Below are positions 2,850 to 28,126 of a stretch of 45,225 bases of DNA, in pieces. The number at the start of each line of letters is the position of its first letter. Within the stretch, counting starts at the first letter, position 1. Position numbers and translations under genes: made by a program. Location: IMG/VR virus record IMGVR_UViG_3300027759_000145, positions 1 through 45,225 of that record; one strand, 5' to 3'. Under the pieces are notes generated by a model. That model was not told where the DNA came from. It saw nothing but the letters and a program-made list of their open reading frames with translations, and did no database searches. The DNA is from a virus.

Positions 2850-3359
2850 TTAGTTATTATTTCTTTGACTTATTATTGGTTCCATTGAACTTTTAAACAC
2901 TTCGTTAAACTTAGCTAACTTTTCTAATGTATTTGCAACGTTCTGCTCTAATTTTAACATATCAGCCATTACATATACACCACCTTCTTTACCTGCGATA
3001 AACACAAACTTAATTCCATCGTCAGTTAATGTACCATCCAATCTAATTTGGTCAGGGAATAATGAAAACCCTGGTTCAAAGTTTACAATTTGTGAAACTT
3101 GTTGTCTAAAATTATCTATAATGCCCGAGATTTCATTCTTTTGCTCATCCAATAATTTCATATCAACATCATCAGTGGAATTAATTTTAACATCAACGTC
3201 ATTTACAACAAGAACATCATCTTTCATGTTTTGTTCTGGTTGAGGTTCGTTTTGTGCCATCTCAACTTGTTCCCTTAAAATTTTATTTGACGTGGTTGAT
3301 TCATTGAGTTTCCTCATCATGTTCAACATTTTTTTGTCTAAGTCGTAACTATTTTTCAT
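2850..3359 (-). CDS. Hypothetical protein, probable virion-associated
   Basis: 169 aa. The N-terminal 40 residues are polar and helical; the middle has an acidic run with repeated V-D-V (about residues 50-66). Residues about 95-130 form an alternating hydrophobic pattern (FSLFPDQIRLDGTLTDDGIKF) typical of a beta domain, followed by a helix. No signal or membrane segment is seen. Its start lies 11 bases inside the end of the amidase-fold gene, so the two are tightly linked. I cannot name a family. Placement between that gene and the ParB-domain gene makes a structural or assembly role plausible only by association. Confidence 0.5.
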   Translation of the reverse strand: MKNSYDLDKKMLNMMRKLNESTTSNKILREQVEMAQNEPQPEQNMKDDVLVVNDVDVKINSTDDVDMKLLDEQKNEISGIIDNFRQQVSQIVNFEPGFSLFPDQIRLDGTLTDDGIKFVFIAGKEGGVYVMADMLKLEQNVANTLEKLAKFNEVFKSSMEPIISQRNNN

Positions 3360-3966
3360 TTTTTCTTGAATTGCTAAAGAATACCCTAAAATTAAAAGAA
3401 GGGTTTATATCAGTATAAATACTTGCAAAATTAGATTTACATACAATTCCATTGAAATTTGATGCATTTTCTAAGTATCCTTGCGATGGTACCGTTTGTT
3501 TATATATTTCATGCTTATCACATAAGTGTTCGCACAATTTGGCAAGCGAATCTAATTGTGTTTCGCCGTACTTATCCCAAAAATAATAGTTTCTCCAATT
3601 ACGTATATGTGGCTCAGACCTGTATGGGTCTCCAATCCAATTGTGTAATATACCTGTGATTGTGTTTTTGTTTAACCACCCTAAGTTTTCAACGGCGATT
3701 TTAATTTGTTTTCTATCTACTTTTGGATTGTCAAAGGTGTTTGAACTATAATTGGTGTCGAATAGTTGATAGACCATGCCAAGCTTAGAAACAACAAAAT
3801 GGGGTACGTCTTCGTACTTCCCATTTTTGCGATACTTTATCTTATTTATGAAATCGTCGACACGTCTTTGTGTGTCATAAAGTAAAATCTGTGTTTTTTT
3901 AGATTTTCTTTTATGTATGTTAAGTTGATTTTTATCTAATGTTTCTACATTAAAAATTTCTAACAT
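3349..3966 (-). CDS. N-acetylmuramoyl-L-alanine amidase-fold protein, probably inactive
   Basis: 205 aa. The layout matches the Amidase_2/PGRP fold: a first strand with ILLYDTQRRVDDF (residues 27-39), a central PHFVVSKLGMVYQLFD (55-70), the strand IKIAVENLGWL (88-98), and a final CKSNFASIYTDINPSFNF (176-193) resembling the family's H-x-D-I-x(n)-T-D-P-G-P-x-F end. In active members three zinc ligands sit on the first strand (His), in the final motif (His) and near its end (Cys or Asp). Here those positions read Y30, C176 and D186, so two histidines are missing. It may bind peptidoglycan or serve structurally rather than cut the wall, or use altered metal ligands. The start is two bases after the stop of the -1 extension of the gene upstream. 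Confidence 0.55.
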   Translation of the reverse strand: MLEIFNVETLDKNQLNIHKRKSKKTQILLYDTQRRVDDFINKIKYRKNGKYEDVPHFVVSKLGMVYQLFDTNYSSNTFDNPKVDRKQIKIAVENLGWLNKNTITGILHNWIGDPYRSEPHIRNWRNYYFWDKYGETQLDSLAKLCEHLCDKHEIYKQTVPSQGYLENASNFNGIVCKSNFASIYTDINPSFNFRVFFSNSRKNEK

Positions 3967-3968
3967 TT

Positions 3969-4072
3969 TTATGATTTTTTATCATCAGCTTCCCAATATA
4001 TGTTACGATATTCTGCTGAATTTAACATTTCCTCCGGGCGGTTTTCTATTATTTCTTCGGATGGTTCTGTTA
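3969..4072 (-). other. -1 frame extension of the four-TM protein after an A11 slippery run
   Basis: After the run of 11 A residues, the -1 frame codes for 34 residues, beginning ITEPSEEIIENRPEEMLNSA and ending WEADDKKS, then TAA at 3971-3969, two bases before the ATG of the amidase-fold gene. Its acidic character matches the upstream tail, and its end fits the packing used across the window. A run with A AAA AAA in the zero frame is a classical -1 slippery site and also favours transcriptional slippage. An assembly indel is the plain alternative. Without it, the 100 bases here would be an unusually long gap for this region. Confidence 0.6.
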
Positions 4073-5257
4073 TTTTTTTTTTTCGTCGATTGCGTCATCT
4101 ACGATATCTAACATTTTATCTAATTCTTTTGAATCTGTTTGATAAATTGGTTCGTCATCTTTATCTATTGGGTCAACACCCACATCCCACGCTTCGTCAG
4201 GTTCGGGCGAAGATTCTTCTAATGCTTCTAACATTTCCAATTCATTAAATTCAGCAATTGCTTGGTCAATTTCTTCATCAGTTAAATTGAGTTCGTCACT
4301 TTCCCAACTCTCAATTTTTTTTAAAGCCTCGGCTTGTTTTTCAAGAATTAAAAGATTATTATCTTCTTCCACTTCTTTCATGTGTTGCGCCTGACGTTTA
4401 AAATAATCGTTTCTCATTTTAATTAATTCATCATCTTCTTCAACCTTTAATCTATGTTCGCTGTTAGCTAAAGCACCAACGGGGTCTTCACTTTCATCCT
4501 CATACCCTCGTATTTCATTTTGAATCTCACCAATTCTTTTCATACGTTCGGCAATTCTTTTAAATTCAATTTTCTGTGCTCGTTCTACAATTTCTTCATC
4601 ACTTAACGTTACGCCATCTTTTAATGATGCTTTTTGAAGTTTCTCATATTCTTCTTTAGGTTTTGTGCGTAATAAACGTTCTTCAAGTAACGCTAAATCT
4701 TCTTCAGATAATCTAACCCTTGAAATCTCTCCAATTAAATCGGACGCATCAATTTTTTCTATATTTTCTTCTTTTTTATCACTAACTTTATTTTCTTCTT
4801 CACTGAATTTTACTAACATGTGAAGAAAAGATAATGAAATTAGTGGTAACATACCACCGGAGAGGAACGCCAAGAATCGTTTGTGTCCTATGAAGTCCGT
4901 AGGCTCCACCCCTGTCATTTCTAACAACGGTGATACTAGCTCAACCCAAGATTTAAACGAACTGGCGGTTACATCAATAAATGAATAAGCAAAGAATACA
5001 TTGCCTATGAATTGTATTAATGTAACAATACCAAATGGGAAGTAAATTTTCTTACCCATATTTGCAGAAATTGCTGCAAGTGCTGATAACGCCGCAATCT
5101 CAATACCAACTGATAGGTAGATTGCCCACGTAAGAGGATTTGATATACCGTACCATTGAGTAACGTGTGATATTGAAACCACAGCCACAGTAATGATTGG
5201 TATTAAAAACGCTAATATGATTACCGTTTTGTAATTTTTATGAAACCAAACTTTCAT
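4070..5257 (-). CDS. Membrane protein with four TM segments and a long acidic cytoplasmic tail
   Basis: 395 aa in the zero frame. Four hydrophobic segments lie at about residues 11-32, 42-64, 71-93 and 130-150, followed by about 240 highly charged residues predicted to form coiled coil. I do not recognise the family; it would sit in the host inner membrane with its tail in the cytoplasm. The ATG overlaps the stop of the small upstream gene (TAATG). The zero frame ends directly after an 11-A run (T-run at 4073-4083) with codons GAA AAA AAA AAA TAA. The -1 frame continues with a similarly acidic sequence to 3969, so the natural product is probably about 430 aa, by frameshift or because the run length is misread (see the separate entry). 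Confidence 0.7.
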   Translation of the reverse strand: MKVWFHKNYKTVIILAFLIPIITVAVVSISHVTQWYGISNPLTWAIYLSVGIEIAALSALAAISANMGKKIYFPFGIVTLIQFIGNVFFAYSFIDVTASSFKSWVELVSPLLEMTGVEPTDFIGHKRFLAFLSGGMLPLISLSFLHMLVKFSEEENKVSDKKEENIEKIDASDLIGEISRVRLSEEDLALLEERLLRTKPKEEYEKLQKASLKDGVTLSDEEIVERAQKIEFKRIAERMKRIGEIQNEIRGYEDESEDPVGALANSEHRLKVEEDDELIKMRNDYFKRQAQHMKEVEEDNNLLILEKQAEALKKIESWESDELNLTDEEIDQAIAEFNELEMLEALEESSPEPDEAWDVGVDPIDKDDEPIYQTDSKELDKMLDIVDDAIDEKKK

Positions 5258-5525: not shown

Positions 5526-6335
5526 TTATAAATAGTTTAATAGATTGAAACTCTCGTTTCTTAATTTCTTTATTGCCTTATCTCTTAACTGTCTTATACG
5601 TTCTTTTGTACAACCAAACTCATCACCTAAATCTTCTAAGTTACATTCAATACCATTTAAACCATAATATTTCTCAATGATTACCTTTTCTCTATCGTCA
5701 AGAACACTTAACATTCGAGCAACTCGTTTTTTTATTTCTTCTGGTGTGTTGAATATTTCTTCAGGATTCCCCGCGTCCTTATTGGGAATCAAATCAATTA
5801 GTTGGTCACCATCTTCATTAATCTCCTTAAACAATCCCACACAATAAGGTAATGTTGTTGTGTTTTCATTGTTTCCGTCCGTGTAGAACTTATCAATTTT
5901 ATTTGTTTCATTCTTTTTGTTCTTTTGAGCTTCTTGAACTAAGTTAGATGGGAGTCTAATTGTTCTCGCATTATCATTTAATGATGCCATAATGGATTGT
6001 TTAACCCACCACACGGCATATGATATAAATTTCAATCCGCTATTGGGGTCAAAACGTTCTGTTGCCTTAATAAGACCAATATTACCTTCAGATATTAAAT
6101 CTAATAAATCGAGACCTTGTCCTTGATACATTTTAGCAACCGAAATTACAAATCTTAGATTACCTAAAACAAGTTCTTCCAATACTTTATCTTTTTCCTT
6201 TTTGGTTGATTTAGAGTCAAGTAACAATTTAAAGATTTCGTCTTGTCTTTGATGACTTACGATTGGTATTTTACGAATATCTTTAATGTATTGATTAATT
6301 TCGTCGGTGCTGATAAGGACGGCAGGTTTTCTCAT
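5526..6335 (-). CDS. RNA polymerase sigma-70 family sigma factor
   Basis: 269 aa. Directs host RNA polymerase to phage promoters; by position and analogy with T4 gp55 it is the likely late sigma factor. Region 1.2-like sequence is at about residues 9-40. Region 2 is at 54-129 and carries LGNLRFVISVAKMYQGQG, DLISEGNIGLIKA and FISYAVWWVKQSI (core binding and -10 recognition). Region 3 is shortened and divergent (about 130-190). Region 4 is at 205-262, with the helix-turn-helix at 232-256 (LEDLGDEFGCTKERIRQLRDK) for -35 contact. It is far closer to a housekeeping RpoD than to the small, degenerate gp55 of T4, which suggests capture from a host. The upstream gap is AT-rich and holds no clear Shine-Dalgarno sequence. 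Confidence 0.93.
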   Translation of the reverse strand: MRKPAVLISTDEINQYIKDIRKIPIVSHQRQDEIFKLLLDSKSTKKEKDKVLEELVLGNLRFVISVAKMYQGQGLDLLDLISEGNIGLIKATERFDPNSGLKFISYAVWWVKQSIMASLNDNARTIRLPSNLVQEAQKNKKNETNKIDKFYTDGNNENTTTLPYCVGLFKEINEDGDQLIDLIPNKDAGNPEEIFNTPEEIKKRVARMLSVLDDREKVIIEKYYGLNGIECNLEDLGDEFGCTKERIRQLRDKAIKKLRNESFNLLNYL

Positions 6336-23542: not shown

Positions 23543-26500
23543 TTAATTATCACAATAGAATGTCCAATTTGTTAATGTTATTGTTATGTTGCCAGCCGAC
23601 CCACTACTACTTTGTACAGTACCTCTTAATGTTGCCGCACTACAACCACCATTATATAGGCTATAAGAATTTCCCACAACTAATGCACTTTGTGGTGTAC
23701 CCACATTCACAGTAAATGTGTCCTTCTTAAAGTCAAGTGAGAATGTTGGTGGAGTTGTACAAACATTGGTTTCAATAGATGTTACCACACCACTCGAGTT
23801 TACAATATATTTGTTATTATTTCTCATAACATACGCTCCTTCAGGTGCGGTTATGGTACGAATTGAGTTTATATAAATTGTTGACCCAGTGGCTAATGGC
23901 GCACCTGAATTAATATTAGTTTGTGCAATGGTATAATAAATTTCTTTTGTTTCGTTAAATGAATAACACGCGTATTCACCACTTGTATTGGTGCTAAACT
24001 TAACAATTGATGAAGTTTGGTCTCCAACACCTAAATAATCAATATAGAACTCACCAACCTCTTCATATCGTGCTAAAGTGGTTCCTGTACACCCACAATT
24101 AGTTTGAGGTATGCAATAAACATCATATTTTACAAAATGCTTATTAAGTATTCCACCCACTATATTATAATCATTTAAATTTAAATTAGCGTAATCATCA
24201 TTATTTACACCACCATAACGTTGTAATAATTGTTGACCTGCAAGATTATAGATTTGTTTAACATATAATTCATTTACATTACGGTACGAATTATCTGCGG
24301 CATTTTTAATATTTAACCAATTTAATATATTACTATGCCCGTCATAATTTCTTTTATACACACCAACAAATGCGGGGTCGGACGCTAAACAAATTGGATT
24401 ACTAATGGTCCTTTGGCCCGAATAATTTGGTACAGTAGGGAATGGTGTACTTGTTGGTATTGGTGTTATTGATGGTGTAACAGTGTTTGTTGGTGATGGT
24501 GTTGTATTTGGTGTGCTTGTTACTGTTGGTGTTGGTGTAACTGTATTTGTTGGTGTTGCCGTTACTGTTGGTGTTGGTGTTGGTGAAGGTACTTCAAAAA
24601 TTTCGGTAAATGTAGCCCCAACAATACAATCGATTGATTGTGTTACTGTTGGTGTAATTGTTGCAGTTACTGTTGGTGTTGCAGTATTTGTGGGCGTAAC
24701 GGTATTTGTTGGAGTTGTGGTTGAGGTCGCTGTTGGTGTTGGTGTTACAGTATTTGTTGGAGTAACAGTAGATGTTACAGTTGGTGTAATCGAAGACGTT
24801 GGTGTAATAGTATTGGTCGGTGTAATAGTATTTGTTGGTGTAACACTTGAGGTTAGTGTTGGGGTTTGAGTATTTGTTGGTGTAACTGTTGGTGTATTTG
24901 TAACTGTAGATGTTGGTGTTACTGTGGTTGTTGGAGTAACCGACGGTGTGTTGGTAGGTGTTTCGGTGTTGGTTGGAGTTTGTGTATTGGTTGGTGTAAT
25001 CGTATTGGTTGGTGTAACCGACGGTGTGTTGGTAGGTGTTTCGGTGTTGGTTGGGGTTTGTGTATTGGTTGGTGTAATTGCATTGGTTGGTGTTATGGTA
25101 TTTGTTGGTGTATTTGTTGGGGTAACACTACTTGTTGGTGTTATAGTATTTGTTGGTGTAATTGTTGGGGTAACACTACTTGTTGGTGTTATAGTATTTG
25201 TTGGTGTAATTGTTGGCGTAATTGATGGTGTAACACTACTTGTTGGTGTTATAGTATTTGTTGGTGTATTTGATGGTGTAACAGTACTTGTTGGTGTAAT
25301 GCTGTTTGTTGGTGTTATTGTTGGGGTAATTGATGGTGTAATACTACTTGTTGGTGTAATGCTATTTGTAGGTGTTATTGTTGATGTTGGTGTAACTGTT
25401 TTAGTTGGTGTAATAGTGTTGGTTGGGGTAATAGTGTTGGTTGGGGTAATTGATGGTGTAACAGTACTTGTTGGTGTAATGCTGTTTGTTGGTGTTATTG
25501 TTGGGGTAATTGATGGTGTAACAGTACTTGTTGGTGTAACAGTTTTAGTTGATGTAATTGTTGGGGTAACACTACTTGTTGGTGTAATGCTGTTTGTTGG
25601 TGTTATTGTTGGGGTAATTGATGGTGTAACAGTACTTGTTGGTGTAATTGTTGGCGTAATTGATGGTGTAACAGTACTTGTTGGTGTAACAGTTTTAGTT
25701 GATGTAATTGTTGGGGTAACACTACTTGTTGGTGTAATTGTTGGGGTAACACTACTTGTTGGTGTAATTGTTGGGGTAACACTACTTGTTGGTGTAATTG
25801 TTGGGGTAATTGATGGTGTGACAGTACTTGTTGGTGTAACAGTTTTAGTTGATGTAATTGTTGGGGTAACACTACTTGTTGGTGTAATTGTTGGGGTAAT
25901 TGATGGTGTGACAGTACTTGTTGGTGTAATTGTTGGGGTAACACTACTTGTTGGTGTAACAGTTTTAGTTGGTGTAATTGTTGGGGTAATTGATGGTGTG
26001 ACAGTACTTGTTGGTGTAATTGTTGGGGTAATTGATGGTGTGACAGTACTTGTTGGTGTAATAGTTCTTGTTGGTGTTACTGTCGGTGTAATAGTATTTG
26101 TTGGTGTAGGCGAAGATGATGAACCAGGTGATGGTGTTACACTTGTTGTTGGGGTTTTAGTAATTGTTGGTGTAGGTGAAATTGTTGCGGTTGTTGTAAC
26201 AGTACGCGTTGGCGTTCTTGTAATCGCCGGTGTTTCAGTATTTGATGGTGTATTAGTTGGTGTATTAGTAATTGTTGGTGTTATTGTAGGTGTACTAGTA
26301 ACCGTACTTGTTGGAGTCGGTGTTGACTGTGGTGTTCTTGTTGGTGTTGGTGATAAACTTGCGTCCGGTGTTTTAGTTGGTGTTGGCGTTAATGTTCTTG
26401 TATTACTTGGTGTAATTGTGGCGGTTGGTGTTAATGTACGTGTTGGTGTCGGTGAAACAGTAACACCCACACAATATAAATTAAAGAACCATAACGATTC

Positions 26501-28126
26501 GGTATCTGTTGTATTAACAACAATTTTTACTCTGTTATCCAATAATGTCGAACCTGTAACCGTAATGCTATTATATCCCGTACCACTATATGATACTGTA
26601 GGTATTGAACTTGTTTCAGGATAATATAAATCAAATGAATCGTTAATTGTATATGCCGCATATTCAAATACACTAGTTCCTCCACTTAAACCCGCACTAA
26701 TATAGTATGTTTGAGCACCTATTGATGTATGTCCGCCACTTACAGGGTCACCACAAACATAATTTCTTGTTACAGATGGTGTTGGTGTAACTGTTTTTGT
26801 TGGTGTGTTTGTTGGGGTGATTGTTTTTGTTGGTGTAGTGCTTGGAGTTGCCGTTGGGGTGGCAGTTGGGGTGTTTGTTTTTGTCGGTGTTGGAGTTGGA
26901 GTAATTGGAACCATACATCCAACAATAAATGACCATAATGTTTCAATTTGACCATTATCAACAGGGTTGACAACTACCTTTACCTTATCGGATGAGCCAT
27001 CCACCGATAATGTGGTAGAACCTGTTACACCAGATACTGATGTATATCCTGTAAATAATACATTCTCAGGATAGTAAATGTCAAATCTATCTACAATTGT
27101 TAAACCTGTGTAGTTAAACGTAAATGTACCGGCCACAGGTAACATATCTAAAACAAATTCCTGCGGTTGTGGTGAATACCCGCCTGAATATAATGTTGCA
27201 CATCCATCACCTTGCGATATTGATATTACATCAATGTCAATTTCAAACACACAAAGAATTGTTGGTGTTATCGATGGTGTAGGTGTTGGTGTGGCATTCA
27301 TAGATGACGTTGGTGTCATTGATGGTGTCAATGTTGGTGTAGTTGTAACCGTAGGTCTTGGTGTTTCTGTTCTTGTTGGTGTAGCGGTATTTGTACGTGT
27401 TGGCGTTGGTGTTACTGTACGTGTAGCAGTAATTGATGGTGTTGGAGTGATTGTTGCCGGTGGTGTTGGCGACACTAAAGCATTACAATCAATCATTGTC
27501 GACTTAGATAATGTATTATTAGTCCAAGGCGAATCTAATCTAATAGTAATATTTTTACTACCATTAGTGGCATATGTTTTAATTGCTTTATGACAATCAA
27601 CGCCTGTACAAACACCCTCTACACCGATTGGTGATGTTGTTCCATCACCCCAATCTACCGTAAATATAATCTCACCCACGCCAGCAATACCACTTAAGTT
27701 AGTAGTATTAGTAACTGTAACTGTATTACAATTAACTTCGTAAATAAAGTTTGCATTAATTTGATTTTGTGTTGATTCAACACCAATGTTACCATCAAAT
27801 GCAACCATGGAGCCCATTTCATCTGCGGTCGCTTCTAAGTATAATGGAAGCTGTTGATTATCGTAAATTTGTAAATTTATTTGGGAAGTTGTGCCTGTAA
27901 CTAAATTCCATCTATTACCAGTAGGCACTCCCCATTTATAATATCCACTATTTTGTGTGCCACCTGTAATGTTATATATTACGGTACCATCAATAACTTG
28001 GTCATTAGTTAAATCAACCCAATTAATAAGATTATCATTAGAATCGTACCAAGTTTGACCAGTTAAAGAAACCAATCTAACATTTGCAATGTTTTTACGT
28101 CTAATGGTATACTTATTTTTTTTCAT
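23543..28126 (-). CDS. Giant PT-repeat fibre/adhesin-like protein with a PKD-like domain
   Basis: 1527 aa. The N-terminal 215 residues include a PKD-like segment, IIFTVDWGDGTTSPIG then YATNGSKNITIRL. Then come a first PT linker (about 215-292), a folded domain, a second PT linker (about 409-450), a related folded domain, and a long PT tract of about 600 residues (about 555-1160) made of units such as TITPTSSVTP. The two folded domains are relatives: each has F-D-(I/L)-Y-Y-P-E in the middle, a KVVVN/KIVVN strand, and an L-W-x-F ending. A C-terminal domain (about 1240-1527) follows, with RYEEVGEFYIDYLGVGD and a final KYIVNSSGVVTSI module also present in the 641-aa protein. It is probably a fibre or surface decoration; the receptor is unknown. 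Confidence 0.75.
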   Translation of the reverse strand: MKKNKYTIRRKNIANVRLVSLTGQTWYDSNDNLINWVDLTNDQVIDGTVIYNITGGTQNSGYYKWGVPTGNRWNLVTGTTSQINLQIYDNQQLPLYLEATADEMGSMVAFDGNIGVESTQNQINANFIYEVNCNTVTVTNTTNLSGIAGVGEIIFTVDWGDGTTSPIGVEGVCTGVDCHKAIKTYATNGSKNITIRLDSPWTNNTLSKSTMIDCNALVSPTPPATITPTPSITATRTVTPTPTRTNTATPTRTETPRPTVTTTPTLTPSMTPTSSMNATPTPTPSITPTILCVFEIDIDVISISQGDGCATLYSGGYSPQPQEFVLDMLPVAGTFTFNYTGLTIVDRFDIYYPENVLFTGYTSVSGVTGSTTLSVDGSSDKVKVVVNPVDNGQIETLWSFIVGCMVPITPTPTPTKTNTPTATPTATPSTTPTKTITPTNTPTKTVTPTPSVTRNYVCGDPVSGGHTSIGAQTYYISAGLSGGTSVFEYAAYTINDSFDLYYPETSSIPTVSYSGTGYNSITVTGSTLLDNRVKIVVNTTDTESLWFFNLYCVGVTVSPTPTRTLTPTATITPSNTRTLTPTPTKTPDASLSPTPTRTPQSTPTPTSTVTSTPTITPTITNTPTNTPSNTETPAITRTPTRTVTTTATISPTPTITKTPTTSVTPSPGSSSSPTPTNTITPTVTPTRTITPTSTVTPSITPTITPTSTVTPSITPTITPTKTVTPTSSVTPTITPTSTVTPSITPTITPTSSVTPTITSTKTVTPTSTVTPSITPTITPTSSVTPTITPTSSVTPTITPTSSVTPTITSTKTVTPTSTVTPSITPTITPTSTVTPSITPTITPTNSITPTSSVTPTITSTKTVTPTSTVTPSITPTITPTNSITPTSTVTPSITPTNTITPTNTITPTKTVTPTSTITPTNSITPTSSITPSITPTITPTNSITPTSTVTPSNTPTNTITPTSSVTPSITPTITPTNTITPTSSVTPTITPTNTITPTSSVTPTNTPTNTITPTNAITPTNTQTPTNTETPTNTPSVTPTNTITPTNTQTPTNTETPTNTPSVTPTTTVTPTSTVTNTPTVTPTNTQTPTLTSSVTPTNTITPTNTITPTSSITPTVTSTVTPTNTVTPTPTATSTTTPTNTVTPTNTATPTVTATITPTVTQSIDCIVGATFTEIFEVPSPTPTPTVTATPTNTVTPTPTVTSTPNTTPSPTNTVTPSITPIPTSTPFPTVPNYSGQRTISNPICLASDPAFVGVYKRNYDGHSNILNWLNIKNAADNSYRNVNELYVKQIYNLAGQQLLQRYGGVNNDDYANLNLNDYNIVGGILNKHFVKYDVYCIPQTNCGCTGTTLARYEEVGEFYIDYLGVGDQTSSIVKFSTNTSGEYACYSFNETKEIYYTIAQTNINSGAPLATGSTIYINSIRTITAPEGAYVMRNNNKYIVNSSGVVTSIETNVCTTPPTFSLDFKKDTFTVNVGTPQSALVVGNSYSLYNGGCSAATLRGTVQSSSGSAGNITITLTNWTFYCDN
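24640..26460 (-). repeat. PT-repeat tract with 30-bp and 150-bp tandem periodicity
   Basis: A DNA-level repeat coding for decapeptides such as TSSVTPTITP. Nearly identical 30-bp units lie in tandem at 25701-25790. A longer block recurs exactly 150 bp apart, starting at 25511, 25661 and 25811. This suggests recent expansion by slippage or unequal recombination. The unit count may be wrong in an assembly from short reads. Confidence 0.85.

Follow-up and report, generated by a model that had tools for sequence, protein, structure and literature searches.

Evidence for a conserved poly(A) slippery run with three candidate C-termini in a tailed-phage membrane-protein gene

Transcriptional slippage on runs of A is a known mechanism (tssM1, dnaX). 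In bacteria, runs of at least 9 A have the classic length for it, and a large share of bacterial genomes show avoidance at a run length of nine (PMC1088944). In Citrobacter rodentium tssM1, a run of 11 A leads to mRNAs with 10-15 A and about 20% frameshift, and both protein forms are needed (PMC4256274). The phage locus analyzed here is similar to tssM1 in that 11 A lie shortly ahead of the 0-frame stop of a membrane-protein gene, an extra A restores the full-length form, and the short form would be the main product. Unlike tssM1, which uses one alternative frame, the phage family has both frames under selection, and the proteins are unrelated. Thermus thermophilus dnaX (A9) and IS-element slippage (PMC1088944) are comparable in their coding poly(A) run and heterogeneous mRNAs in three frames, but their non-genomic frames give a shorter product and no two conserved alternative tails. 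In Shigella spa13 (PMC5009743), as is proposed here, the slipped product carries a C-terminal extension whose end overlaps the start of the next gene, and slippage alters the expression of that gene; however, spa13 is a cellular secretion gene with a single alternative frame.

Two viral systems are also close. Editing in the paramyxovirus P/V/W genes and in filoviruses (PMC5009743, PMC8204654) likewise combines one slippery site and a common N-terminus with alternative C-termini, and in bovine parainfluenza virus 3 a stretch is translated in all three frames (PMC5009743, PMC8204654). Those are RNA viruses with their own RNA-dependent polymerase, whereas the present locus belongs to a tailed DNA phage. 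The lambda G/GT tail-assembly chaperone (PMC5009743) likewise involves a phage recoding site that is conserved, lies close to the 3' end of a gene, and yields a C-terminally extended form. It differs in being a ribosomal -1 shift in a tail gene, while here a protein with four transmembrane (TM) helices is encoded beside an amidase, and a poly(A) run serves two shifted frames (PMC5009743). A literature search covering few subscription journals found no paper on such a slippage site, and no precedent for a three-way output, in a tailed phage.

The window is the whole 45,225-nucleotide stretch of viral DNA analyzed, IMG/VR record IMGVR_UViG_3300027759_000145. The features of the locus are listed in Table 1.

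Table 1. Coordinates of the slippery-run locus and its neighbors in the window
Feature	Position	Strand	Basis
4-TM membrane-protein gene, short (genomic 0-frame) form, 395 aa	4070..5257	-	ORF list; homologs in 80 IMG/VR loci
Conserved N-terminal domain, 4 TM helices and amphipathic helix	4763..5257	-	Alignment and AlphaFold2
A11 slippery run	4073..4083	-	11 T on the + strand; A9-A11 in 43/51 distinct homologous loci
-1-frame tail (acidic), ITEPSEEIIENRPEEMLNSAEYRNIYWEADDKKS, then stop	3969..4073	-	Needs one extra A; in the family, conserved (I/L)YWE motif and third-position signature
+1-frame tail (basic), NRTIRRNNRKPPGGNVKFSRIS, then stop	4003..4071	-	Needs one A fewer or two more; +1 third-position substitutions in the family
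Downstream Amidase_2 gene	3349..3966	-	Pfam PF01510, E 2.3e-7; start coincides with the -1 frame end
Upstream 88-aa protein, N-terminal hydrophobic segment	5257..5523	-	Syntenic in relatives
Sigma-70-type RNA polymerase sigma factor	5526..6335	-	Pfam Sigma70_r2/r4; phrog_351, E 2.1e-51; syntenic in relatives

On the minus strand, the 395-codon gene ends in GAC GAA AAA AAA AAA TAA, so that the protein terminates with DEKKK. The run is the longest homopolymer of the window, in which the second longest measures 9. Past the run, the -1 frame continues for 34 residues to a stop at 3969-3971, two bases ahead of the amidase ATG (3966). A sequence-only reading of this DNA had described an 11-A run, a 0-frame stop right behind it, and this open -1 frame, and all three were confirmed in the sequence. 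It did not mention the +1 frame, corresponding to an mRNA with A10 or A13, which is open for 22 codons beyond the run (stop at 4003-4005) and is also selected, as described below. The order sigma factor, small protein, 4-TM protein, and amidase is kept in relatives; the 79-aa (2609-2848) and 169-aa (2850-3359) genes past the amidase are syntenic as well and have no PHROGs family match.

We scanned IMG/VR with the protein and with its TM domain, obtaining 80 loci in the largest scan; together with the window, these gave 51 distinct loci. A run of 9-11 A stands at the gene end in 43 of the 51 (A9 once, A10 33 times, A11 nine times), a count of related loci and not of independent events. At least 10 A are kept in 42 of the 43, and exactly A11 occurs at the same position in three relatives from other metagenomes. 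The run-bearing loci belong to more than one clade of the TM-domain tree, indicating a broad spread. The eight run-less loci carry a single continuous, shorter frame whose end overlaps the amidase start. Outside this site, the same loci (549,639 bases in total) gave four runs of 10 and none of 11, in a list of other runs that also contains the site of locus L051. In eight large contigs (1.99 Mb), a run of 10 recurs 11 times apart from this site, and in nine cases it is not inside an ORF of at least 60 aa. The site has the features looked for in a slippage site: about 9 or more consecutive A within coding sequence, conserved in homologs and rare in other coding DNA.

The phase of the run is conserved along with its length. 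A11 is read as GAA AAA AAA AAA, and A10 as GAA AAA AAA AAN or TTA AAA AAA AAA, so that the same short genomic form is encoded in 41 of the 43 run-bearing loci. This compensation between run length and phase argues against both sequencing error and phase variation at the DNA level. Among near-identical loci, which are assembled consensus sequences, no variation in run length was found. Alignment to relatives had been proposed earlier as a way to refute recoding at this site; the run proved to be retained in 43 of 51 loci, and the A10 relatives are still phased to the 0-frame stop.

Two further A runs were observed in relatives. The contig of L055 carries an A10 within the 3' end of a 178-aa ORF (L096, 727-736). 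Either shift there meets a stop after a few codons, so this run has little resemblance to another recoding site. L020 has a second run (A9, about 6153-6162) in the same gene, about 54 bases upstream of its A10.

Cellular genomes and plasmids yielded no relatives, and no homolog turned up in an isolated phage. The phage records gave only LR756500, an unannotated 462-kb metagenomic phage, with a homolog at 35% that has no run at the gene end. For the remaining window genes, the nearest matches were phages of Tenacibaculum and Flavobacterium, along with an unannotated metagenomic phage; the ribonucleotide reductase matches a Tenacibaculum phage at 53%, and the baseplate wedge has matches at 26-28%. 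Because of the Tenacibaculum and Flavobacterium matches, a Bacteroidota host is likely.

L020 and L051 provide natural controls. Their A10 stands in another phase, and the long form is what the genomic frame encodes, with its end at -32 (L020) and -35 (L051) from the amidase ATG. Adding one A to L020 gives NSFRKPLTRGKYSIFTFGGNPRLDK, which is like the basic tail of L046 (Z 8.8 against shuffles), and removing one A gives a short form. In L020, then, the frames are rotated and the three predicted outputs are unchanged. What separates both loci from their relatives is the flanking sequence and not simply a changed number of A.

To examine selection in the shifted frames, substitutions were counted by parsimony on the TM-domain tree according to 0-frame codon position, with alignments guided by the frame tested. 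The three counts refer to the third positions of the +1, -1, and 0 frames, respectively. Upstream of the run they were 235/158/337, in the +1-tail region 121/72/74, and beyond the +1 stop 144/350/165. Because these alignments were frame-guided, we repeated the count on 13 non-overlapping close pairs, using nucleotide alignment without reference to any frame. In the overlap, the substitutions were 80/39/35, with +1 third positions enriched (p 2e-6); beyond the +1 stop they were 55/127/73, with -1 third positions enriched (p 6e-8). The tree-based and pairwise counts agree. This region-by-region enrichment is the signature of constraint, read from substitution patterns, on the +1 frame first and on the -1 frame beyond it, as expected if the products of both shifted frames are selected. 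Frames open by chance were ruled out by third-position signatures in two frames.

Over the same nucleotides (17 pairs), mean peptide identity was 73% in the +1 frame and 55% in the -1 frame. The -1 frame had no third-position signal of its own in the overlap (39 vs 35), so its product may be only a linker there. The pair formed by the window and L001 is uninformative by itself (3/4/3); the case for the window therefore rests on the family. A shuffle test of frame openness given the other peptide was weak per locus (typically 0.03-0.7) and was not used as main evidence.

Where no contig end interrupts the locus, the -1 tails measure 33-132 aa. Most of them end in RNV(G/R/S)N(S/T).RR (RNV.NSRRR), and many carry (I/L)YWE(S/A)(D/E)D; in the window clade, the tail is shortened and lacks the RNV end. 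Relative to the amidase ATG, the -1 stop falls at -32 or -35 (-38 in L045) and at +1 to +4 in the window clade, with the exceptions of L058, which ends 21 bases short, L028, which is cut by the contig end, and L022, which was scored to an internal ATG. The 0-frame stop is located 102-360 bases and the +1 stop 36-305 bases upstream of that ATG. Tail conservation, coding-like evolution, and the in-frame fusion in L020 and L051 thus support the -1 product, and the sequence evidence favors the earlier proposal of forms with and without this tail, made by recoding at the run. The earlier count of two forms did not stand, as there are three candidate outputs.

The long-form tails of L025, L081, L082, L087, L089, and others contain PTPT/TPTP repeats of variable length, which resemble repeats of a 1527-aa window protein (23543-28126, minus strand). 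Inside that gene, a 566-aa antisense ORF rich in VGV repeats (24924-26624, plus strand) mirrors the very long SVTPTITPTS/PTNT repeat region of the protein, and is probably a by-product of the repeat and not a gene.

The +1 tails are about 17-39 aa long, with recurring KLWFG.W, TYR(S/N)PNSNIDF, and PN(V/L)RI..(F/L). No ATG, GTG, or TTG was found among their 969 codons, which makes a separate start unlikely, and separate initiation of the +1 tail was dropped. The basic charge of this tail was also dropped as evidence: it is partly forced by the E-rich -1 codons, as GAAGAA reads AGAAGA in the other frame, so the acidic/basic contrast is not independent evidence. L005 (A9) and L051 are without a basic tail. 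As far as these loci show, the third, basic-tailed output is thus widespread but dispensable.

Taken together, we propose that one gene would yield three C-termini through a programmed slippery run on which the RNA polymerase slips, a reading to which we give a probability of roughly 75%. Transcriptional slippage is favored since at least 10 A are conserved, both directions are used, and no conserved downstream RNA structure was detected (29 loci, mean z -0.37, just two single loci below -2). In the sequence-only reading it was a mere alternative; the evidence points to it rather than to a ribosomal -1 shift.

Ribosomes might instead slip in both directions on the poly-lysine/poly(A) stretch and make three forms from an unchanged mRNA. 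Long stretches of AAA lysine codons favor ribosome sliding, and the conservation evidence is identical to that for polymerase slippage. Nevertheless, we consider this unlikely, as no ribosomal stimulator was detected and at least 9 A is the length classically tied to transcriptional slippage in bacteria (PMC1088944). Still less probable is a programmed -1 ribosomal frameshift on A AAA AAA, with the -1 product only. This X XXY YYZ heptamer is present within the run, the -1 frame is open and conserved in the run-bearing loci, and a purine-rich GAGGA stretch directly precedes the run in some loci. However, seven A would be enough for such a shift, but 42 of 43 loci retain 10 or more, and downstream structure is not conserved. 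Conservation is not confined to the -1 frame either: the +1 frame is constrained in the overlap, and the basic tail of L020 is kept in rotated frames, both of which such a shift leaves unexplained. The dedicated -1 ribosomal frameshift put forward earlier hence accounts for only one of the tailed outputs.

Very improbable is phase variation at the DNA level, in which the run length would differ between phage genomes and each particle would encode one of the three forms. Homopolymer tracts are classic contingency loci, and the long form is the genomic frame in L020 and L051; but the short-form phase is found in 41 of 43 run-bearing loci, near-identical genomes have identical run lengths (in assembled consensus, not reads), and L020 and L051 are set apart by their flanks, not simply by run length. 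Homopolymers are prone to error, but a sequencing or assembly error hiding one continuous true frame was rejected, as dozens of contigs from many different metagenomes have the identical phase, their A10 and A11 versions are compensated by flanking bases, and the +1 frame too evolves under constraint.

The polymerase-slippage model builds on observed elements, namely the conserved run and its phase, the selection acting in each of the two tail frames, and the placement of the stops relative to the amidase start. We infer that the polymerase rather than the ribosome slips, and likewise the product ratios. Slipping on the 10-11 A would generate mRNAs with a variable number of A. From the unchanged mRNA, translation would produce the short 4-TM protein, which closes with KKK or KKN followed by 0-4 aa. 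An mRNA longer by one A (-1 frame) would encode the long form, whose tail has an acidic or PT-rich linker and, as seen in most relatives, the conserved RNV.NSRRR end. One A fewer or two more (+1 frame) would give the third form with its short basic tail. In a reporter study, E. coli RNA polymerase gave no deletion product on the poly(A) runs examined (PMC6260861); by analogy, the +1 form may need a +2 A insertion and be rare.

Since translation of the long form would terminate at the amidase start, it could be coupled to the amidase, and the geometry suggests that only this form would be translationally coupled. The ratio of the forms, or the identity of the tail, may thereby tune membrane protein and amidase expression. 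We lean slightly towards a full three-way switch, in which the short, acidic-long, and basic-tailed forms are all selected and slippage would set the isoform ratio and, via the long form, amidase output.

The N-terminal domain of the protein is conserved, with a mean column identity of 77% in an alignment of 41 sequences. AlphaFold2 modeled it with pLDDT 81.7 and pTM 0.66 (62.8-81.7 over five models), placing helices at 2-36, 41-64, 68-93, 99-113, and 122-162, of which we read the four long ones as TM helices, with one short helix besides. Searches of Pfam, PHROGs, PDB sequences, and PDB folds gave no family or fold match, and a viral fold library gave only uncharacterized phage proteins. Four TM helices beside an Amidase_2 gene recall a holin, yet there is no match in Pfam, PHROGs, or PDB, and the family proteins, at 317-514 aa with a long tail, are unlike a typical holin. 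As a guess, an envelope or lysis role would be compatible with the place beside the amidase.

Examples of one slippery run with both shifted frames put to productive use come mainly from RNA viruses. If the proposed model is true, RNA-polymerase slippage can serve tailed phages as a built-in means of making isoforms, and gene-calling programs cut such proteins short and overlook two conserved tails. With three frames, one run, and simple reporters, the locus offers a directly testable system.
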